Shown piece by piece: positions 10,126 through 32,529 of a stretch of DNA of 64,000 bases (the first letter of the stretch is position 1; each line of letters starts with the position of its first letter). The notes under the pieces are model-generated. The model saw nothing but the letters and a program-made list of their open reading frames with translations. It did not search any database and was not told where the DNA came from. The position numbers were made by a program, and so were the translations under genes. Source of the DNA: Pseudomonas serboccidentalis (GTDB taxonomy: Bacteria; Pseudomonadota; Gammaproteobacteria; Pseudomonadales; Pseudomonadaceae); the NCBI RefSeq assembly GCF_028830055.1, contig NZ_CP101655.1, forward strand, positions 5,052,262-5,116,261. Direction: 5' to 3'.

Positions 10126-11175
10126 TCACGGTGCCAAGGTCGCGTTGTCGATCACGAAACGGTATTTGACGTCACCCTTGAGCATGCGCTCGTACGCCTC
10201 ATTGATCTGCTCGGCGCGTATCAGCTCGATGTCCGAAACGATGCCGTGCTCGGCGCAGAAATCGAGCATCTCCTGGGTCTCGGGGATGCCGCCGATCATC
10301 GATCCAGCCAGGGTGCGCCGCTTCATGATCAGGTTGAACACGTTGGGCGATGGATGCGGCGAGGCCGGCGCGCCCACCAGGGTCATCACGCCGTCGCGCT
10401 TGAGCAGAACCAGCAGTGCGTCCAGGTCATGCGGGGCGGCGACGGTGTTGATGATCAGGTCGAAGCTTTTCAGGTGCGCGGCCATTTGCTGCGCATCGCT
10501 TGAGACGACCACTTCATCGGCACCCAGGCTTTTCGCGGCTTCACGCTTGGATTCAGAGGTGGTGAACGCCACCACCTGCGCGCCCAGCGCATGGGCCAGT
10601 TTGATGCCCATGTGACCCAGGCCACCGATGCCCACCACGCCGACTTTCTTGCCGGGGCCGGCGTTCCAGTGGCGCAGCGGCGACCAGGTGGTGATGCCCG
10701 CGCACAGCAGCGGCGCCACGGCAGCCAGTTGTGCCTCGGGGTGGCGAATGCGCAAAGCGTAGCGCTGATGCACGACGATCGCCTGCGAGTAACCACCGAG
10801 GGTCCAGCCGGGTGCGTCCGGGGTCGGAAAGTTGTAGGTGCCGATCATGCCGTCGCAGTAGTTCTCGAGGCCCTCGGCACACTCTTGGCAATGCTTGCAG
10901 CTGTCGACGATGCAGCCCACTCCGACCAGATCGCCCGGGGCGAACCCGGTGACTTTCTGGCCGACAGCGGTGACCCGACCGACGATCTCGTGACCGGGCA
11001 CACAAGGGTATTGCGTCCCTTCCCATTCGGCGCGTACCTGGTGCAGGTCCGAGTGGCAGATACCGCAATAGGCAATCTCGATCTGCACATCTTCCGGGCC
11101 GGGATCACGGCGAGTGATACGCAGGGGTTCAAGCGGTTTGTCGCCCGCATGGGCACCATAAGCGAAGACTTGCAT
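10126..11175 (-). CDS. Zinc-dependent NADP(H) alcohol dehydrogenase / aldehyde reductase, YahK-like
   Basis: Medium-chain dehydrogenase of 349 residues, near identical in pattern to E. coli YahK, a broad-range NADPH aldehyde reductase. Catalytic-zinc region CGICHSDLH and GHEIVG are present. Structural zinc is marked by four cysteines in the CIVDSCKHCQEC...YC stretch, and the Rossmann glycines are GIGGLGHMG. Start chosen at 11175 because AAAGGAGAG lies 8-9 nt upstream and the family begins there; the longer frame to 11232 is rejected. It is divergent from an AraC regulator of the YqhC type, a group known to control aldehyde reductases, so induction by toxic aldehydes is likely. Confidence 0.88.
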   Translation of the reverse strand: MQVFAYGAHAGDKPLEPLRITRRDPGPEDVQIEIAYCGICHSDLHQVRAEWEGTQYPCVPGHEIVGRVTAVGQKVTGFAPGDLVGVGCIVDSCKHCQECAEGLENYCDGMIGTYNFPTPDAPGWTLGGYSQAIVVHQRYALRIRHPEAQLAAVAPLLCAGITTWSPLRHWNAGPGKKVGVVGIGGLGHMGIKLAHALGAQVVAFTTSESKREAAKSLGADEVVVSSDAQQMAAHLKSFDLIINTVAAPHDLDALLVLLKRDGVMTLVGAPASPHPSPNVFNLIMKRRTLAGSMIGGIPETQEMLDFCAEHGIVSDIELIRAEQINEAYERMLKGDVKYRFVIDNATLAP

Positions 11176-24080: not shown

Positions 24081-27000
24081 CTAAGCCGGGCTGACTGTTT
24101 TGATCTGCCCATTATCGTCAGGACGAATCTTGAACCAGATCGAGTACATCGCTGGCAGGAACACCAGCGTCATGATGGTTCCGACGAACGTGCCGCCGAT
24201 AAGGGTATAGGCCAGCGTCCCCCAGAACACCGAGTGTGTCAGGGGAATAAAGGCAAGGATCGCCGCCATCGCCGTTAACAGCACCGGTCGGGCACGTTGC
24301 ACCGTGGCTTCGACAACCGCGTGAAACGGGTCCAGCCCTTCTTGCGTGTTGTGATGAATCTGCCCGATCAGAATCAGCGTATTGCGCATCAGGATCCCCG
24401 ACAGTGCAATCAAACCGACCAGCGCATTGATGCCAAACGGCTGATTGAAGATGAGCAGCGTCGGCACCACACCAATCAAGCCTAACGGCGAGGTGAGGAA
24501 CACCATGATCATCGCCGAGATCGAACGAACCTGCACAATGATGATGATCAGGGTCATGGCGATCATGATCGGCAGCAGTGGCAGAATCGCCTTGCCCGCC
24601 TTGCCGGACTCCTCGATGGCGCCCGCCTGCTCAATCCGGTAACCGGAAGGCAGTTGCTCGATGATCGGCTGCAACTGCTTGAGGATCACACTCGACACAT
24701 CCGGTGGCTGCAAGCCTTCGGCAATGTCGCCACGCACCGTGATGGTCGGGGTGCGATCACGCCGGCGCAGGATCGGATCCTCCATGCGCACATCGACCTC
24801 GCCTATCTGCGACAGCGGGATACGCTGGCCCGACGCGCCGACTAACGTGAAGCCTCTGATCTGCTCGGGGTCGAGCCGGATATCGCCCGCTGCCCGCCCC
24901 ACGACCTGCACTGAACGAATATCCTCACGCACCACCGTGATCGGTACTCCACTCAGCAGGAACTGCAATTGCTGTGCAACCGCATTCGATGTCAGCCCCA
25001 CCGCCTGCAAGCGATCCTGATCCAGGCTGAAATGCAACGCCGGGGTCAGCGGGCCCCAGTCAGTGTTCACGGTTCTCATCATGGGGCTATCCTGCATCAC
25101 GCTCCTCACCTGCTCGGCGATCACGCGCAATTTCGCCGGATCAGGCCCCATCACCCGGTAGGCCACTGGAAATGGCGAGTAAGGACCGAACACGATTTGC
25201 GAGGCCCTGAGGCGAGCTTCCGGGGCGAGCCCTTCGGCAACGGCTTGACGAAAACGGACCTTGAGGGTTTCCCGTGCTTCCTGACTGTCGGTCAGCACCA
25301 CGATCTTGGCGAACGACGGATCGGGCAGTTCCGGCGCCATCGCCAGGAAGAAACGTGGTGCACCCTGGCCGATATAGGCCGTGACGATTTTTGCCTCTTC
25401 CTGCTGGTGCAGCCAGGCCTCAACCTTGGCAGCCGTGGCACTGGTCTGCTCGATGGAAGTGCCGTAGGGCATTTGCACCTCGATCATCACCTCGGGCCGG
25501 TCAGACGTCGGGAAGAACTGCTTCTTCACCAGGCCCATGCCTGGAACCGCCACCAGGAACAGCATGACAACCGTGCCTGCGACCAGCCATTTGCGGGCGA
25601 TGACCCCTGTCAGAATCCGGCGGAAACGGTTGTAGCGCGGCGTGTCGTAGATTGCCGCATGCCCACCTTCGACCGTCTTGATGTCTGGCAACAATTTCAC
25701 GCCCAGATACGGCGTGAAAGCCACCGCGACGACCCAGGAAGCGATCAGGGCAATACCCACGATCCAGAACATGTTGCTGGTGTATTCGCCGGCAGTGGAC
25801 TGAGCGAAACCGTTCGGCAGAAAACCGATCGCCGTCACCAGGGTACCGGACAGCATCGGCGCCGCCGTATGACTCCAGGCATAGGCCGAAGCCTTGATGC
25901 GATCGTAGCCCTCCTCCATTTTCACCACCATCATTTCAATGGCAATGATGGCGTCATCGACCAACAGCCCGAGCGCCAGGATCAATGACCCGAGGGTGAT
26001 ACGGTCGAAATTCTTGCCGGTGGCCGCCATCACCACAAACACGATCGCCAGGGTCAACGGCACGGCCGCAGCAACCACGACGCCGACACGCCAGCCCATA
26101 CTCAGAAAGCAGACCAGCATGACCACCAGCAGCGCGACAAAGAACTTGACCATGAACTCGCCGACGGCCGAGTCGATATTCACCGCCTGGTCAGTGACCT
26201 TGGAGAGGCTCATGCCCAAGGGCATTTCCTCATTGATCCTGACGGTCTCTGCATCCAGCGCCTTGCCAAGATCAAGACCATTCCAGCCCTCGCGCATCAC
26301 AACGCCCAGCAACAGCGCATCTTCGCCGTTATTGCGCACCCGAAAGGTGGCTGGGTCTTCGTAACCGCGCTCAACCGTCGCCACATCCGAGAGCTTGAGT
26401 GTCCGCCCCTGCACGATCACAGGGGTGTCGCGAATTTTCTGCAGCGTGTCGAACGCGCCATCGAGACGCAGAAAAACCTGTGGCCCACTGGTGTCGATGG
26501 ATCCAGCCGGGGTCAGTACGTTCTGACTGTTCAGCGCAGCGAAGATATCCTGCGGTGACAAGCCCAAGGTCGCCAACCGGTCATGCGAGAACGAAACAAA
26601 TATCCGCTCGGCTTGCTCGCCAATGATGTTGACCTTCTTCACCCCCGGCACATGCAGCAGGCGCTGTCGCATGGACTCCGCATCGCGTACCAGCAGGCGC
26701 TGCGGCTCGCCTTTGGCTTTGAGGGCGAACAGCGCAAAGGTCACGTCCGAATATTCATCGTTGACCATCGGCCCGATGACGCCCGCCGGCAACTTGATGG
26801 CTTCGTCGTCGAGCTTTTTACGCGCCTGATAAAACTCCTCCTGCACTTGCGAAGGGGGCGTGCTATCGAGCAACGAGACCATGGTGAAAGCCAGCCCTGG
26901 CCGCGTATAGGTTTCCGAGCGGTCGTACCACTTGAGTTCTTGCAGGCGCTTTTCCAGTGGCTCCGCGACCTGATCCTGCATCTCCTGCGCAGTCGCTCCC

Positions 27001-27170
27001 GGCCACGCGGTAATGACGGTCAACTGCTTGACCGTAAACGGAGGATCTTCGGCACGCCCCAACTGGAAGAACGACAAGATGCCGGCAACGGCGATCAGAA
27101 AAATCAGAAAGACCGTGATCGCTCGCTCGCGAACGGCGATGGCGGAAATGTTGAATCGTCCCTCGTTCAT
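24081..27170 (-). CDS. RND efflux pump inner-membrane permease (TriC-like)
   Basis: Proton-driven exporter of 1029 residues with the two-fold RND layout: 12 membrane segments and two large periplasmic loops. Signatures include GRAEDPPFTVKQLTV, WPGATAQEMQDQVAEPLEKRL, and the proton-relay Asp pair in LGLLVDDAIIAIEMMV of the fourth membrane segment. NGFAQSTAGEYTSNMFWIVG places it near P. aeruginosa TriC rather than MexB. It overlaps the adaptor gene by 4 nt. TriC works with two adaptors, but only one is encoded here. The outer-membrane partner is the divergent gene at 28491. Substrates unknown; co-regulation with a FadL porin points to hydrophobic compounds. Confidence 0.9.
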   Translation of the reverse strand: MNEGRFNISAIAVRERAITVFLIFLIAVAGILSFFQLGRAEDPPFTVKQLTVITAWPGATAQEMQDQVAEPLEKRLQELKWYDRSETYTRPGLAFTMVSLLDSTPPSQVQEEFYQARKKLDDEAIKLPAGVIGPMVNDEYSDVTFALFALKAKGEPQRLLVRDAESMRQRLLHVPGVKKVNIIGEQAERIFVSFSHDRLATLGLSPQDIFAALNSQNVLTPAGSIDTSGPQVFLRLDGAFDTLQKIRDTPVIVQGRTLKLSDVATVERGYEDPATFRVRNNGEDALLLGVVMREGWNGLDLGKALDAETVRINEEMPLGMSLSKVTDQAVNIDSAVGEFMVKFFVALLVVMLVCFLSMGWRVGVVVAAAVPLTLAIVFVVMAATGKNFDRITLGSLILALGLLVDDAIIAIEMMVVKMEEGYDRIKASAYAWSHTAAPMLSGTLVTAIGFLPNGFAQSTAGEYTSNMFWIVGIALIASWVVAVAFTPYLGVKLLPDIKTVEGGHAAIYDTPRYNRFRRILTGVIARKWLVAGTVVMLFLVAVPGMGLVKKQFFPTSDRPEVMIEVQMPYGTSIEQTSATAAKVEAWLHQQEEAKIVTAYIGQGAPRFFLAMAPELPDPSFAKIVVLTDSQEARETLKVRFRQAVAEGLAPEARLRASQIVFGPYSPFPVAYRVMGPDPAKLRVIAEQVRSVMQDSPMMRTVNTDWGPLTPALHFSLDQDRLQAVGLTSNAVAQQLQFLLSGVPITVVREDIRSVQVVGRAAGDIRLDPEQIRGFTLVGASGQRIPLSQIGEVDVRMEDPILRRRDRTPTITVRGDIAEGLQPPDVSSVILKQLQPIIEQLPSGYRIEQAGAIEESGKAGKAILPLLPIMIAMTLIIIIVQVRSISAMIMVFLTSPLGLIGVVPTLLIFNQPFGINALVGLIALSGILMRNTLILIGQIHHNTQEGLDPFHAVVEATVQRARPVLLTAMAAILAFIPLTHSVFWGTLAYTLIGGTFVGTIMTLVFLPAMYSIWFKIRPDDNGQIKTVSPA

Positions 27171-28276
27171 GGACGACTCCCGGCAACCGTCGTTTCACTC
27201 TGCGCAGGCATTCTCACGGTCTCCCCTTCGCGCAACAGATGAGCGCCCAGCGCGACAATCTGCTCGCCGACGTTGAGATCGCCGACCACTCGCGCCGAAT
27301 CGTCGCTCAACCCCAACACCTGAACCCGTCGCCAGGTCACTGTTGGCGGTGTGCCGGCGATGACCCACACGCCAGGACCTTTACCCGGGTCGTAAACCGC
27401 AGCGATGGGCACTCGCAACGACACCACGGGTGCGGAGCCCTCGGCGATACTGAGGGTGACGGTCGAACCGATCGGTGCATTGGCCAATGCGCCCTCCAGT
27501 ACATACCGCGCCTCAAACGTGCGCGTCGTACGGTCTGCCGAGTCCGACAGCAACCGCAGTTTTGCTGTCACGGCACCCGAGACGTCGCCATAGAGCGTGG
27601 CTTGCGCGGTGGATCCTGCTGCGGGACGCACGGTCTCGGGCAGGTGCACGATGGCCTCGCGCTGCCCTGCCCGCGCCAGACGAACCACCGGTTGGCCCGG
27701 GCTGACGACCTGCCCTGGCTCGGCGAGTGTTTCCACCACAACACCGTCAGCATCGGCGACCAACACCGCATAACCCGAGGCATTGCGGGCGACGTCCGCT
27801 TGCGCTTCAGCGGCGCTGAGCTGCGCCTTGGCCGTGTCTGCGGCCGCTTTGATCTGATCGTAGGCCGATGCCGAAATAGCGCCGGCGGCAACCAGATCGC
27901 GATAGCGGGCCTCGTCGTCGGCTGTCTGCCTGGCACGGGCTCGAGCGGCGATGACTGACTCCTGCTGTGCTCGCGCTTGCAGCCCGAGGTCGATGGGGTC
28001 GAGACGCATCAGCGGCTGACCACGCTTGACGGTCTGCCCCGTATCAACCAACCGTTCGAGCACCTTGCCCGATACGCGAAACCCCAGGTCACCCTGGACG
28101 CGCGCAGCCACCACGCCGGTGAAAGACCGAGCACCGTCAGACGAAGCCTGAACAGCAGTGGTCCTGACCAAAGGCGCCTGCGTACGCGGGTCTGCAACGG
28201 AGGAGGAATCACCGCACGCCGCCAGGGCGAGAGGCAACAGGCATGCGGCAATGGGAAAAGGTCGGAGCCGGCGCAT
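27167..28276 (-). CDS. RND periplasmic adaptor (membrane fusion) lipoprotein
   Basis: Bridges the inner-membrane pump and the outer-membrane channel. 369 residues: signal peptide with lipobox LAAC (Cys21), then barrel-sandwich/lipoyl halves (VSGKVLERLVDTGQTVKRGQPL and ADGVVVETLAEPGQVVSPGQPV). These flank an Ala-rich alpha-hairpin (about 95-150), with beta-barrel and proximal domains after them. Ribosome site TAAGGG upstream of the ATG. First gene of the operon with the permease (ATGA overlap). The promoter just upstream is covered by a copy of the 24-bp palindrome. Confidence 0.9.
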   Translation of the reverse strand: MRRLRPFPIAACLLPLALAACGDSSSVADPRTQAPLVRTTAVQASSDGARSFTGVVAARVQGDLGFRVSGKVLERLVDTGQTVKRGQPLMRLDPIDLGLQARAQQESVIAARARARQTADDEARYRDLVAAGAISASAYDQIKAAADTAKAQLSAAEAQADVARNASGYAVLVADADGVVVETLAEPGQVVSPGQPVVRLARAGQREAIVHLPETVRPAAGSTAQATLYGDVSGAVTAKLRLLSDSADRTTRTFEARYVLEGALANAPIGSTVTLSIAEGSAPVVSLRVPIAAVYDPGKGPGVWVIAGTPPTVTWRRVQVLGLSDDSARVVGDLNVGEQIVALGAHLLREGETVRMPAQSETTVAGSRP

Positions 28277-28308
28277 AGGTTCCCTTACTGAAATAGGATG
28301 AGCATCAT

Positions 28309-28337
28309 ATTCTCAGCCTAGTGACCAGCATCGTCAA
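28309..28337 (-). promoter_or_regulatory. Predicted promoter of the RND adaptor-permease operon
   Basis: On the minus strand TTGACG (28337-28332), a 17-nt spacer, then GAGAAT (28314-28309). The -35 box lies inside the 24-bp palindrome, so repressor and RNA polymerase would compete. Confidence 0.5.
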
Positions 28338-28344
28338 TAGTCAC
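28321..28344. promoter_or_regulatory. 24-bp palindromic operator, copy 1 (RND operon side)
   Basis: Arms GTGACCAG and ATAGTCAC around 8 nt; 6 of 8 arm positions pair. It has the same length and geometry as the three copies at 28444, 31371 and 32168. It covers the predicted -35 of the RND operon. The presumed ligand is the TetR protein encoded at 31503-32129. Confidence 0.65.
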
Positions 28345-28433
28345 AAGCAGTGAAGTGTTTTGCGCCTTAGGAAAATCGCTCAATATTTCCAGCATCCATT
28401 AAGGATCATTCCAATCAGCGCGAACAGGGTTAA

Positions 28434-28461
28434 TTGACACAAAGTGACCATTGCGTAATAT
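28434..28461 (+). promoter_or_regulatory. Predicted promoter of the outer-membrane factor gene
   Basis: TTGACA (28434-28439), a 16-nt spacer, then TAATAT (28456-28461). The spacer and -10 lie within the 24-bp palindrome. The same TTGAC-N16-TAATAT arrangement occurs at the FadL gene. Confidence 0.55.
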
Positions 28462-28467
28462 GGTCAC
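28444..28467. promoter_or_regulatory. 24-bp palindromic operator, copy 2 (outer-membrane factor side)
   Basis: Perfect arms GTGACCAT and ATGGTCAC with an 8-nt spacer. It overlaps the spacer and -10 of the predicted promoter, 23 nt before the start codon at 28491. Confidence 0.75.
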
Positions 28468-28490
28468 AAACATCCCACTAAGGAACTCCA

Positions 28491-29951
28491 ATGCCTCCCC
28501 TCCGCCCAATTGCTCTTTTGGTTACCGCCGGCTTGATGGCAGGTTGTGCGGTGGGTCCGGATTACCAGCGTCCAGACGCCCCGCTTTCGGACCATTACCT
28601 GGGGCAGCGAGCTGTCGAACCGCACTCCGAATCGACGCCGAGCAGCCTTGTCGCCTGGTGGGAAAACTTTAATGATCCGGTGCTGACCACCCTCATCACC
28701 CAGGCACTGCAGCAGAATCTGGACCTGGCGCAGGCATCGGCGCGAGTCACCCAGGCACGGGCCGGACTGGGTGCGGCAAACGCAGCACTGCTGCCCTCGG
28801 CAGACATCGGCGCACAGGCCGCACGCTCTTATCAGTCAGTCGAGACGCCACTGGGCCAAGTGTTGAATTCAACCCCTGGCTATGACCGTTACGGAAATGC
28901 CTACGAGGTCAACCTTGAGGCTGGCTGGGAGATCGATGTATTTGGAGGACTGCGCCGAGGGCGTGAGGCTGCACTGGCTGAATACCAGGCCTCAGCCGCA
29001 GGTTTCACGGCGACACGCCTGGCGATCGCTGCGCAAACGGCTGATATCTACATCACCCTGCGCGGATTACAGGCACGGCTGGATATTGCCAACCAGCAAG
29101 TCAACACCCGGCGCGCGTTGCTGGAGAAGGTCCAGTTGCTTTACAGCAAAGGCCTGGCCGCGACCTACCAGGTTCGTCAGGCTGAGGGAGAACTGTCGCA
29201 GGTCCAGGCGAGCGTTCCGGTACTGCAGAGCGGTCTGGAGGCAGCCATGAACGCAATGGATGTGCTGCTCGGCACGCCTCCCGGCACGCACCGTACGCAA
29301 CTGGCACGAGAGGGAAGCATTCCTGTTGCGCCGCCGTTAAATGCGCTGGGAACACCGGCCGAACTGTTGCGACGCAGACCGGATCTGATCGTGGCCGAGC
29401 GCCGTCTTGCAGCCTCCAACGCGCGCATCGGTGAAGCGATTGCCGAGTACTACCCGAAGTTTTCCCTCAGCGCATTGCTGGGCAGCGCGACGGCTGTATC
29501 CGGCGGTAATCTTTTTACCAACGGCGCGAGCCAATCGAGCGGTGTTCTGGGCCTGCGCTGGAGGCTTTTCGACTTTGGACGCATCAACGCCCAGATCGAT
29601 CAGGCCAAAGGTCAGGAAGCTGAGGCGTTGGCCGCGTACCGTCAGTCGGTGCTGCGCGCAACAGAAGATGTAGAGAACGCGCTGTCCTCACTGGTGAATC
29701 GGCAAGCCCAGACCACCACCCTCACCGGCGGCGAGGCGGCGCTGACACAAGCCCGCCAGTCCTCGTTCACCGCCTATGAAAAAGGCACGGCCAGCCTGAT
29801 CGATGTCCTGCACGCCGACGAGACGTTGCTGCAGACCTCCGATGCCAGAGCGCAGGCGCGAACGGAATCGGCCCGCGCGGCGGTGGCGGTATTCAAATCG
29901 CTGGGGGGTGGCTGGCAACCCGAAGAGTCGCGGTCTGTAGCGGCGCGCTGA
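28491..29951 (+). CDS. Outer-membrane efflux lipoprotein, NodT/OprM family
   Basis: Trimeric outer-membrane channel of an RND pump, 486 residues. The lipobox MAGC gives a lipidated Cys19, followed by the typical VGPDYQRP. Two OEP repeats each supply a coiled coil: the first covers LAQASARVTQARAGL and later LALRG-like ITLRGLQARLDIA; the second covers LLRRRPDLIVAERRLAASNARIGEA and LRWRLFDFGRINAQI. It is divergent from the adaptor-permease operon with 214 nt between them that hold two operator copies. It therefore completes that tripartite pump. Confidence 0.9.
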   Translation: MPPLRPIALLVTAGLMAGCAVGPDYQRPDAPLSDHYLGQRAVEPHSESTPSSLVAWWENFNDPVLTTLITQALQQNLDLAQASARVTQARAGLGAANAALLPSADIGAQAARSYQSVETPLGQVLNSTPGYDRYGNAYEVNLEAGWEIDVFGGLRRGREAALAEYQASAAGFTATRLAIAAQTADIYITLRGLQARLDIANQQVNTRRALLEKVQLLYSKGLAATYQVRQAEGELSQVQASVPVLQSGLEAAMNAMDVLLGTPPGTHRTQLAREGSIPVAPPLNALGTPAELLRRRPDLIVAERRLAASNARIGEAIAEYYPKFSLSALLGSATAVSGGNLFTNGASQSSGVLGLRWRLFDFGRINAQIDQAKGQEAEALAAYRQSVLRATEDVENALSSLVNRQAQTTTLTGGEAALTQARQSSFTAYEKGTASLIDVLHADETLLQTSDARAQARTESARAAVAVFKSLGGGWQPEESRSVAAR

Positions 29952-29990
29952 ACAGCAACGCCAGACAGTTTTCAGATCCAGCTTTGGAGA

Positions 29991-30016
29991 GTCGGGAGAC
30001 AACACGTACTCCCGAC
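29991..30016. terminator. Hairpin between convergent efflux-channel and FadL genes
   Basis: Perfect 8-bp inverted repeat GTCGGGAG / CTCCCGAC with a 10-nt loop, placed between the two stop codons. No U-tract, so it may need help or simply protect 3' ends. Confidence 0.4.
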
Positions 30017-30034
30017 CCGCTTAACAGCGCTCGA

Positions 30035-31306
30035 CTAGAAGCGGTAGCTCACCGAAGTACCGAAGCCGCTGGCACTGTTCTTGTACTTGGCACTGTACGC
30101 ACCTCGGGTGGCCGAAGTGTCGTTGATCTGTACGCTTTCCTCCCACAGATAGGAATACGCGAGGTCGATCGTGACATTGTCCACGGGCGTCCAGCCGGCA
30201 CCGAAGCTGACAACCTTACGGTCGCCCGTAGGAATGCGCGGCCCGCGATTGGTATTGTTGGTGGGTGACTGATCCACCGAAAACCCGCCACGCAGCACCC
30301 ACTGGTCATTCAATTGATAGGCCGCCCCGATCGCGTGAGCCCACGTGTCATGCCAGTTCTGCTCTTCGCTGATCGTTCCCAATTGGCCGCTGAGTAATGG
30401 CGGCAAGCCGCTGTTCTCAATCGTCAGCTCCTTGAAGCGGCTCCAGCGCGTCCAGGTACTGCCCGCGTAGAGTGTCCAGTCGTTATTGAGTTGATGCGTC
30501 ACCGAAAAGTCCACCGACTCCGGCGTGTCCACATCCAGCGATGCGTCGTAGCTACGGCCGCTGACACCCAGCACGCTGAAGATGCCATCGGTGACCTTGG
30601 TTTTGGCATCCAGGTGGTAACTGACTTTGGAGTGATACGTCAGGCCCAGGCGGGTCTGATCGGTCGCCTGCACCAGCACGCCGGCGTTGAAGCCCAGTGC
30701 GGTGTCATCGCCCGTGCTTTTGAGCTTGCCGTCATTACGCCCCGGACTTAGCGGGTTGGGCACCATGCCCGATATCTCTCCGCCGATACGGTTAATGGTC
30801 GGCCCGAATCCGATCGAGACTTTTTCGTTGAAGGCGTAGCTGATAGTGGGTTGGAAGGTCAGCGTGGTGACTTCACTCTTGTTGGCGTAATAGCGCCCGG
30901 CAAAACCACTGCCGTAGTCGGTGATCAACCCGAAAGGCACATAAAACCCGACGCCGAATGCCCAATGCTCGTCGATGGGTTTGACGTAATACCCCATCGG
31001 TACAGTGGTGGTGGGAACCATGTCGCCGTCTTCCTTCCCCCCAAACGTACTGCGTGTCTGGCTGATGTCAGACTTGGCGAACAGCGTCGCCGCCCCCACG
31101 CTGGCCTGCTCTCGTTTAAGCCGCGCCATACCCGCCGGATTACCGAAGACCGTACTGGCGTCTTCGGCAGATGAAGATCGACCGGCGAAACCGGAGCCCA
31201 TCCCGCTGATGCTTTGTTCGTTGAGTGCAAAGCCACCGGCCAACACATTGGAGGACGCCAGCACGACGGCCAGGCCAACGGGACTCTTGAGCGTTATTTT
31301 TTTCAT
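30035..31306 (-). CDS. FadL/TodX-family outer-membrane transporter
   Basis: Outer-membrane porin for uptake of hydrophobic molecules (long-chain fatty acids, alkanes or aromatics), 423 residues. The signal peptide ends near ...NVLAGG. The mature N-terminus carries the family pattern GFALNEQSISGMGSGFAGRSSSAEDASTVFGNPAGMA, which forms the hatch. The barrel ends with Phe (VSYRF), the usual outer-membrane signature. Start set at 31306: the predicted promoter lies inside the longer frame, so translation cannot begin at 31387. Its control region carries the best copy of the 24-bp palindrome, tying it to the RND pump and the TetR gene. Confidence 0.88.
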   Translation of the reverse strand: MKKITLKSPVGLAVVLASSNVLAGGFALNEQSISGMGSGFAGRSSSAEDASTVFGNPAGMARLKREQASVGAATLFAKSDISQTRSTFGGKEDGDMVPTTTVPMGYYVKPIDEHWAFGVGFYVPFGLITDYGSGFAGRYYANKSEVTTLTFQPTISYAFNEKVSIGFGPTINRIGGEISGMVPNPLSPGRNDGKLKSTGDDTALGFNAGVLVQATDQTRLGLTYHSKVSYHLDAKTKVTDGIFSVLGVSGRSYDASLDVDTPESVDFSVTHQLNNDWTLYAGSTWTRWSRFKELTIENSGLPPLLSGQLGTISEEQNWHDTWAHAIGAAYQLNDQWVLRGGFSVDQSPTNNTNRGPRIPTGDRKVVSFGAGWTPVDNVTIDLAYSYLWEESVQINDTSATRGAYSAKYKNSASGFGTSVSYRF

Positions 31307-31359
31307 TGTCTGGACTCTATGGGTCGCTGAAAAAGAACATCGAAAACTGCAGCGAAGCC

Positions 31360-31387
31360 ATATTATCCAAGTGACCATTTCAGTCAA
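31360..31387 (-). promoter_or_regulatory. Predicted promoter of the FadL-type gene
   Basis: On the minus strand TTGACT (31387-31382), a 16-nt spacer, TAATAT (31365-31360). The -35 lies inside the 24-bp palindrome. It places the transcript start after the first in-frame ATG of the longer frame, supporting the start at 31306. Confidence 0.55.
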
Positions 31388-31394
31388 TGGTCAC
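31371..31394. promoter_or_regulatory. 24-bp palindromic operator, copy 3 (FadL gene)
   Basis: Perfect 9-bp arms GTGACCATT and AATGGTCAC with a 6-nt spacer; the best of the four copies. It covers the -35 box of the FadL gene. Confidence 0.78.
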
Positions 31395-31416
31395 AAACAG
31401 CTAAATTGAATGCCCT

Positions 31417-31436
31417 CCCGGCACGAAGGTGCCGGG
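31417..31436. terminator. Hairpin downstream of the TetR gene
   Basis: Perfect 8-bp stem CCCGGCAC / GTGCCGGG with a GAAG loop, 66 nt past the TetR stop. No U-run follows on the minus strand, so the terminator call is tentative. Confidence 0.35.
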
Positions 31437-31502
31437 AACAGGAGACGAATGAGAGGGATGTCGGCTTGACTCGAATCAGCTGAATATTGGGTCAGCGCCG
31501 GG

Positions 31503-32129
31503 TCAAGGCATGAGGCTGCGCAAGATAAGGTTGGAGGTCAGCGTGGGCGCTACGTCAATAAAATCCAGATTGTGCTGCAGCAGCAACGGGTTGACGAAGG
31601 GACGCAGGGCCAGATGGATCGCTTCGACGGTCTCGTCCAGTGGGGTCTTGCGCTCGAACTCTCCAAGCTCTCGCCCTTCACGCACGATATCGAAGATAAA
31701 GCGCTTGATCTGTTCCTCATAAACCTGGGCACTGGGCCAGCGCTCCGACGCGGAAAATGCCGCGATGTCGTAGAGCTTGCGATCATTGAAGAACAGGTTC
31801 ACACCCGTAGCAATCACGGTTTTCACCAGTCTGCGCAAACGCTCGGTCGGTGAAATCGCCTCTGCGTTAACCGCCAGTTCGACTGCTGCAACGATTTGCC
31901 CCAAACAGTTTGAGCAGATCGCTTCGCCGATCGCCTGTTTGGAATCAAAGAATTTATAGATGTACGCCTTGGAAAAACCGATGGCCCTGGCCAGATCGGA
32001 AACCGTGGTTTTACCGTAGCCATACTGGCTGAAATGCTCGTTGGCAGCCGCGACAATCTGATCGCGAATGTCATGATCGGCGGGGCCACGAGTGCTGGGC
32101 GCAGATGAAGTGATAGATGGCTGATTCAT
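31503..32129 (-). CDS. TetR-family repressor of the efflux/FadL regulon
   Basis: DNA-binding repressor of 208 residues. A disordered N-terminal 17 residues precede the TetR helix-turn-helix (TTVSDLARAIGFSKAYIYKFFDSKQAIGEAI), followed by a helical ligand domain with a CSNC pair near the domain junction. It lies beside the FadL-type gene and the RND system, and a copy of the same 24-bp palindrome found at those genes sits 38 nt before its own start. Autoregulation and control of the whole 24-32 kb block is therefore likely. Ligand unknown, presumably a hydrophobic substrate of the pump or the porin. Confidence 0.85.
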   Translation of the reverse strand: MNQPSITSSAPSTRGPADHDIRDQIVAAANEHFSQYGYGKTTVSDLARAIGFSKAYIYKFFDSKQAIGEAICSNCLGQIVAAVELAVNAEAISPTERLRRLVKTVIATGVNLFFNDRKLYDIAAFSASERWPSAQVYEEQIKRFIFDIVREGRELGEFERKTPLDETVEAIHLALRPFVNPLLLQHNLDFIDVAPTLTSNLILRSLMP

Positions 32130-32167
32130 GAGAGCAGCTTACTCACCCTCTCGTGGGCTGACAACGT

Positions 32168-32191
32168 GTGACTGACACTGAATACAGTCAC
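32168..32191. promoter_or_regulatory. 24-bp palindromic operator, copy 4 (TetR gene)
   Basis: Arms GTGACTGA and ACAGTCAC with an 8-nt spacer; 7 of 8 positions pair. It sits 38 nt upstream of the TetR start codon, as expected for autorepression. Confidence 0.65.
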
Positions 32192-32529
32192 GCATCCTCG
32201 AACAAAACTACTTGTCCCCAGATACCCGGCCGAACGCTTGACGGGTTCTCGGGCTGCATATTCCTTGCGCCTTGACCGCCAAACGAGCTGTCGGCGCTCT
32301 CCGGGTTGTTGCTATCGGCAGATTCCGCTCCTTGGCTATGAAACGGCATTTTCCGAGGTCTCGGCGCCCCTCGAAAGCCAAGTTTCTGACGCCTGTTTAA
32401 CGACCCTTTGCGCAGGTTTCTTCAAGCATAAAAAATTGGCACTTTTGCACAACAAGTTGACATCCAAAAGCATGCCATGGGCGGCCGATATCATTAGAGT
32501 ATGCGCCCTTAAAAAGGAAAGGACTCTTG
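32192..32529. other. Intergenic region upstream of the SDR gene, about 340 nt
   Basis: Lies between the TetR operator and the SDR gene. No convincing gene or RNA seen; a TTGACA-like box (TTGACA at 32457) lies about 70 nt before the SDR start and may be its promoter. The ribosome site AAAGGAAAGGA ends the region. Confidence 0.4.

Follow-up and report, generated by a model that had tools for sequence, protein, structure and literature searches.

The stretch of DNA examined here, hereafter the window, is 64,000 nucleotides of the genome of Pseudomonas serboccidentalis (contig NZ_CP101655.1, positions 5,052,262 to 5,116,261). In it, genes for the permease and periplasmic adaptor of a resistance-nodulation-division (RND) pump stand together with a gene for an outer-membrane channel, the three components of a tripartite efflux system, and are joined by genes for a FadL-family porin and a predicted TetR-family repressor (Table 1). 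The first-pass annotation of this DNA had proposed that four copies of one 24-bp palindrome, GTGAC-N14-GTCAC, unite these genes in a single TetR regulon. All four sites are exact, no other exact site occurs in the window, and the reported pairing of the palindrome arms (6/8, 8/8, 9/9, and 7/8) was correct on recount. The predicted repressor has the all-helical TetR fold, with a helix-turn-helix that is almost invariant among 17 aligned proteins. The interpretation we favor, and hold with considerable confidence on comparative grounds, is that a local, autoregulated TetR repressor would block RNA polymerase at four promoters and be released by a ligand.

Table 1. Genes, predicted operators, and predicted promoters of the cluster (window coordinates)
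Feature	Position	Strand	Details
RND permease	24081..27170	-	ACR_tran 493 bits; best solved relatives MexK (848 bits) and 6vej (756 bits)
RND periplasmic adaptor	27167..28276	-	TIGR01730 179 bits (cut-off 94.9); 4-bp overlap with permease
Predicted adaptor-permease promoter	28309..28337	-	-35 TTGACG within operator 1; 17-nt spacer, poor -10 GAGAAT
Operator 1 (adaptor-permease), predicted	28321..28344		exact GTGAC-N14-GTCAC
Predicted channel promoter	28434..28461	+	TTGACA-N16-TAATAT; -10 within operator 2
Operator 2 (outer-membrane channel), predicted	28444..28467		exact GTGAC-N14-GTCAC
Outer-membrane efflux channel, NodT type	28491..29951	+	TIGR01845 325 bits (cut-off 210)
FadL-family outer-membrane porin	30035..31306	-	PF03349 (Toluene_X) 395 bits (cut-off 29.7)
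Predicted FadL promoter	31360..31387	-	TTGACT-N16-TAATAT; -35 within operator 3
Operator 3 (FadL), predicted	31371..31394		exact GTGAC-N14-GTCAC
TetR-family repressor (predicted)	31503..32129	-	PF00440 48.1 bits (cut-off 24); PF17935 38 bits, also above cut-off
Promoter-like pair of TetR gene	32136..32164	-	TTGTCA-N17-TAAGCT, 6 nt ahead of ATG
Operator 4 (TetR autoregulation), predicted	32168..32191		exact GTGAC-N14-GTCAC; 3 bp upstream of -35-like box

Distribution of the sites in the genome and its relatives

When up to one mismatch is allowed, the window contains seven sites against an expectation of 2.36, a count reached in 1 of 100 shuffles. In the whole genome (a single contig of 5,997,322 bases) seven exact sites occur, compared with nine for a reversed control pattern; four of the seven are packed within 3.9 kb, and the remaining three lie inside mechanically called open frames. 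A scoring matrix built from 198 sites of relatives (described below) and the four window sites gives operators 1 to 4 scores of 23, 32, 34, and 20 bits, and the genome's other three exact sites scores of 9, 9, and 2 bits. A longer consensus, scanned through the genome at zero to two mismatches, finds operators 1 to 3 only. We considered a wider regulon in this genome and rejected it: three mismatches add 10 sites (one strand), nine of them within a mechanically called open frame, versus six sites for the reversed control at three or fewer. The tenth (L150:1501-1524) lies over the starts of two divergent frames, one for a regulator of the LysR type and the other for a flavodoxin-fold protein.

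Among 36 same-genus genomes, the window's included, TetR orthologs (E ≤1e-70) occur in 15 of the 35 others, and all 15 loci have exact sites, one to four each. Named genomes, when scanned, yielded at least 577 TetR relatives; the locus counts that follow use the best 80 of them, 69 from Pseudomonas and 11 from other organisms (Pseudogulbenkiania, Methyloversatilis, two Dechloromonas, Sedimenticola, Aromatoleum, an Azonexaceae, Litchfieldella, Zoogloea, Vreelandella, and an uncultured beta-proteobacterium). At least one exact site is present in every one of the 80 loci, 198 in 1.56 Mb, with two or three in each of the 11 non-Pseudomonas loci. In a control covering spacers of 8 to 20, N14 accounts for 198 sites and the other 12 spacers together for 11, and the reversed motif yields none; loci of 14 other TetR genes contain no exact site, and one of them has a one-mismatch site. 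A chance origin of the sites is rejected on the genome, spacer, and reversed-motif controls. The expectation, set out in the first-pass annotation, that sites would persist in orthologous loci was borne out in both sets, at the same promoters.

A site was assigned to a gene if it lay no more than 250 bp upstream, with the proviso that one site between divergent genes may count for both; eight of the 198 exact sites were assigned to no gene, and one went to a FabF-like gene at 367 bp. By this rule an exact site precedes the adaptor gene in 76 of the 77 relative loci that have one (its start was not seen in the other) and the channel gene in 62 of 64 (one further locus has a one-mismatch site, and in one the start was not seen). 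On the TetR side, where palindromes recur at the expected positions near the gene itself, 59 of 80 loci have an exact site, 11 a one-mismatch site, and 10 none. The corresponding figures for the 32 loci with FadL are 19 exact, two one-mismatch, one with the start not seen, and 10 with none.

The genes themselves are unevenly distributed among the 80 loci: adaptor and permease are each present in 77, the channel in 64, and FadL in 32; no FadL gene lies in the examined flanks of the 11 non-Pseudomonas loci. Further genes, identified by similarity to a single query apiece in flanks of up to 10 kb, are a FabF-like synthase (26 loci), one short-chain dehydrogenase (21), an acyl-CoA thioesterase (12), and another short-chain dehydrogenase (5). 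Of the 12 thioesterase genes, four have an exact site of their own, and one-mismatch sites precede the second dehydrogenase in 3 of 5 and the first in 1 of 21. Judged by these counts, the core unit is the TetR gene plus the pump, and FadL is an optional addition that carries its own operator copy; in some relatives the thioesterase likewise comes as an option together with its own operator, and so, perhaps, does a short-chain dehydrogenase. The first-pass annotation had described the joint control of uptake (FadL) and export (RND) as an unusual pairing. Joint control is favored by conservation of the site, although FadL proves optional, and the term "unusual" is weakened both because of this and because FadL-type and RND genes already stand side by side in the toluene cluster known from Pseudomonas putida (discussed below).

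The missing FadL genes also bear on whether control extends to this porin at all. If only the pump, channel, and repressor were truly controlled, the FadL site would be a leftover without effect, and both the 10 FadL genes without an upstream site and the behavior of loci that have no FadL behind TetR fit such a scheme: all 11 of those examined keep a site (seven exact, four one-mismatch) 70-113 bp behind TetR, close to the FadL-site position. We nevertheless consider this improbable, because 18 of the 19 exact sites on the FadL side have a TTGAC box within them, at site positions 8-12, and because the window's FadL site has the top matrix score of the four operators. Within the interpretation of a four-promoter regulon, a FadL-less site behind TetR can be taken either for a scar or for a site already in place before the gene arrived, and the FadL and thioesterase operators together with these gene-less sites would offer a natural case of genes joining and leaving a small regulon. 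The FadL-less loci are L065 (sites at 10724 and 10841), L064, L081, L085, L086, L093, L096, L098, L101, L107, and L113; in L065, L081, L086, and L101 a separate adaptor site follows the retained one.

A stricter form of the motif, GTGACYR-N10-YRGTCAC, ties the sites to the repressor gene at the level of whole genomes. It is found in all 16 same-genus genomes with the TetR gene (the window's among them); of the 20 without it, three have one site apiece. A background of about one stricter-form site per genome is normal, given that the reversed control produces 22 sites in the 16 genomes and 18 in the 20. Cluster positions account for 34 of the 37 stricter sites in genomes with TetR, two of these being on a second contig of G004, beside adaptor and channel genes. 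A different regulator, encoded elsewhere, might read the sites, the adjacent TetR being incidental; the three TetR-less genomes with a site leave room for this, as does the fact that TetR binding is deduced from sequence. We judge it very unlikely in view of the co-occurrence of motif and TetR (16/16 versus 3/20 genomes, and 11/11 non-Pseudomonas loci) and of the restriction to this locus, in this genome, of sites with zero to two mismatches to the longer consensus. Further afield, among 398 genomes sampled from the phylum, 27 (counting that of the window) contained a relative at E ≤1e-30. Among the phylum-sample loci L176-L202 (n = 27, about 3.6 kb each, without the window's), an exact site is present in 18 of the 20 at 197 bits or above and in none of the seven under 120 bits.

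Predicted promoters and proposed repression

A simple sigma-70-like promoter scan of positions 28250-32300 found three promoters (shuffle mean 1.5), every one overlapping sites 1-3. The earlier claim that three sites lie on predicted promoters therefore stands, but the accompanying claim of -35 boxes inside or flush with the operator holds for the adaptor and FadL promoters and needs correction at the channel, where the -10 TAATAT sits in operator 2 and TTGACA ends 4 bp before it. The TTGAC-N16-TAATAT layout is, as had been stated, common to the channel and FadL promoters only, the adaptor promoter being different, and the fourth site does lie just ahead of the TetR start, next to a promoter-like pair that falls below the threshold of the scan. 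Across the 80 loci, TTGAC occupies the register given above for FadL in 76 of 78 adaptor-side sites and in all four thioesterase-side sites; on the channel side, 38 of 52 sites have TAATAT at positions 13-18, and the consensus has TTGACA just upstream. In these alignments the register of the predicted promoter is set by which gene is the target.

Of 81 sequences upstream of the TetR gene, 12 were dropped because no start codon stood at the aligned first position; 65 of the remaining 69 have TAA[GC]CT in the last 19 nt before the start, exactly 6 nt away in 64; a TTGTCA -35-like box is present in 62, and a Shine-Dalgarno-like motif in one. By eye, the non-Pseudomonas upstream regions differ in their hexamer, several having TATTGT, and place it about as far from the start. 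Because the -10-like hexamer 6 nt from the ATG is kept and Shine-Dalgarno-like motifs are nearly absent, we predict that the TetR mRNA is leaderless and, therefore, probably weakly translated. Seven loci (L046, L090, L094, L118, L119, L120, and L121) have two TetR paralogs per cluster, the second of which is 55-60% identical to the window TetR and lies between the channel and adaptor genes.

In the mechanism we propose, a dimer of the TetR protein encoded at 31503-32129 would bind the four 24-bp operators and block RNA polymerase. At the adaptor-permease and FadL promoters it would cover the -35, and at that of the channel the -10, while at its own promoter it would sit at the upstream edge of the -35. 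A small molecule exported by the pump, or its product, would free the DNA from the repressor; pump, channel, and FadL would then rise together, and the repressor would rise alongside from its leaderless mRNA, closing the loop. Activators can occupy a position such as that of operator 4, on the upstream side of the TetR gene's -35-like box, and TetR could instead activate some of the four promoters, but three of the four sites cover -35 or -10 boxes, the usual position of a repressor, and we give activation little credence. A role of the palindromes as transcription terminators or as hairpins in RNA is rejected as scarcely credible: operator 2 is terminator-like on the minus strand, but variation falls on the inner bases and spares the outer half-sites and the 14-bp spacing, other spacings are almost absent, and the sites are positioned upstream of gene starts.

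Repression by an autoregulated TetR protein thus remains the interpretation we prefer. Its basis, namely the sites, their overlap with predicted promoters, their conservation, and their co-occurrence with TetR, is established by sequence comparison; we infer binding, repression, ligand release, and the leaderless start, with repression and ligand release taken from the known behavior of the TetR family. The overall layout of TetR and RND pump is of a familiar kind, and the regulon is supported about as far as comparative sequence permits. Several observations weigh against it. Operators 1 and 4 score lower than operators 2 and 3, and operator 4 has four mismatches to the longer consensus and is not recovered by it. 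No site lies within 250 bp upstream of a TetR gene in 10 of 80 loci, or upstream of FadL in 10 of the 32 loci that have it, and with 69 of the 80 loci from one genus the counts are not independent. Two fairly close homologs of the phylum sample, L193 and L202, are without an exact site in the approximately 3.6 kb examined, and the helix-turn-helix does not separate site-bearing loci cleanly, L194 having a changed helix yet two sites. The idea that a helix change tracks loss of the site was dropped for this reason. At the L194 sites (1402 and 2148) the outer half-sites are kept and the inner bases differ from the usual ones, a possible shift in specificity accompanying the changed recognition helix.

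The lipid theme among the linked genes (FadL, thioesterase, FabF-like synthase, and short-chain dehydrogenases) suggests that the signal or substrate may resemble a fatty-acyl compound, and our guess is that the ligand would be hydrophobic and fatty-acyl-like. Structural relatives of the repressor (Bacillus FadR, PfmR, EthR, and KstR2) tie, and an inference of the ligand from them was abandoned. A broader proposal, which we consider rather unlikely, is that an acyl-compound-sensing repressor would govern a proteobacterial lipid-exchange regulon, in which a third-branch pump (see below) would export a fatty-acyl-like compound, and FadL, acyl-CoA thioesterase, FabF-like synthase, and short-chain dehydrogenases would be gained and lost as modules, with FadL, the thioesterase, and probably one dehydrogenase bringing their own 24-bp operator, which could remain as a scar.

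Pump identity and related systems

The permease's best solved relatives are MexK and 6vej, the latter being TriC. However, the same genome encodes much closer relatives of both (1876 bits to MexK and 1756 bits to 6vej), to which the window permease is 42% and 39% identical, respectively, and for this reason we place the window pump, by sequence comparison, in a third branch beside MexK and TriC. The cluster resembles MexL/MexJK of Pseudomonas aeruginosa in that a TetR gene adjoins an adaptor-permease pair and in having MexK as the closest solved relative of its permease; it differs in that the much closer MexK relative elsewhere in the genome has its own adjacent TetR, and identity with MexL-MexJK is rejected on these grounds. 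That second TetR, a probable MexL to judge by gene order, belongs to another C-terminal family (TetR_C_7) and is 32% identical to the window TetR over 73 amino acids; the MexK-like locus has no site at zero or one mismatch. Two passages of one article describe MexL as a TetR-family protein and give no operator for it (PMC6018408). TriABC of P. aeruginosa is likewise close through its TriC structure, the permease's second-best solved relative, and is likewise set apart by the genome's separate, far closer 6vej relative.

AcuR of Rhodobacter sphaeroides offers a parallel for the autoregulatory part of the scheme. It is a TetR repressor whose operator overlaps its own promoter and whose leaderless mRNA was mapped by RACE (PMC3017554); here, the leaderless start is predicted from sequence. 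The AcuR operator, given there as TAATAGAC-n6-GTCTATTA, and the acrylate pathway that it serves are different. For the association of FadL and pump, the nearest parallel is TodX with the Sep/Ttg pump in P. putida, where todX, whose product is FadL-like (a TodX structure is solved), and the sep/ttg genes are close by locus number (PMC3056050). The toluene cluster differs in containing catabolic genes, none of which was seen among the scanned window genes. It is under two-component control by TodST, and todX and the sep/ttg genes are under common regulation. Of two other reports, one calls PP_3302 of P. putida an RND family transporter whose deletion had a minor growth effect (PMC10715066), and one gives a different motif for PA3973 (PMC9736018). 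In the open-licence literature, most subscription papers being outside that scope, we found no prior description of this operator and no study of this pump branch; seven papers that contain one of the motif strings are, to judge by their titles, unrelated to the operator. For a pump branch that is widespread, the outcome is an operator and a regulon predicted with precision, which would make the hunt for ligand and substrate direct.

Several smaller points concern individual genes. For FadL, the ATG at 31306 is preferred as start, although the open reading frame (ORF) caller runs on to 31387; the one other FadL gene of the genome encodes a paralog of 62% identity, whose alignment begins at the same start. 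A structure-relative search returned 3dwo and 1t16 as the best solved relatives of the window FadL. An anti-phage role was rejected, PADLOC having matched no family in the four proteins submitted. Just behind the second FadL gene lies an ORF that looks transposase-like by eye (L156:2788-3591), and beside the MexK-like locus another ORF (L154:7885-8572) encodes a repeated peptide that, also by eye, suggests a tandem DNA repeat.

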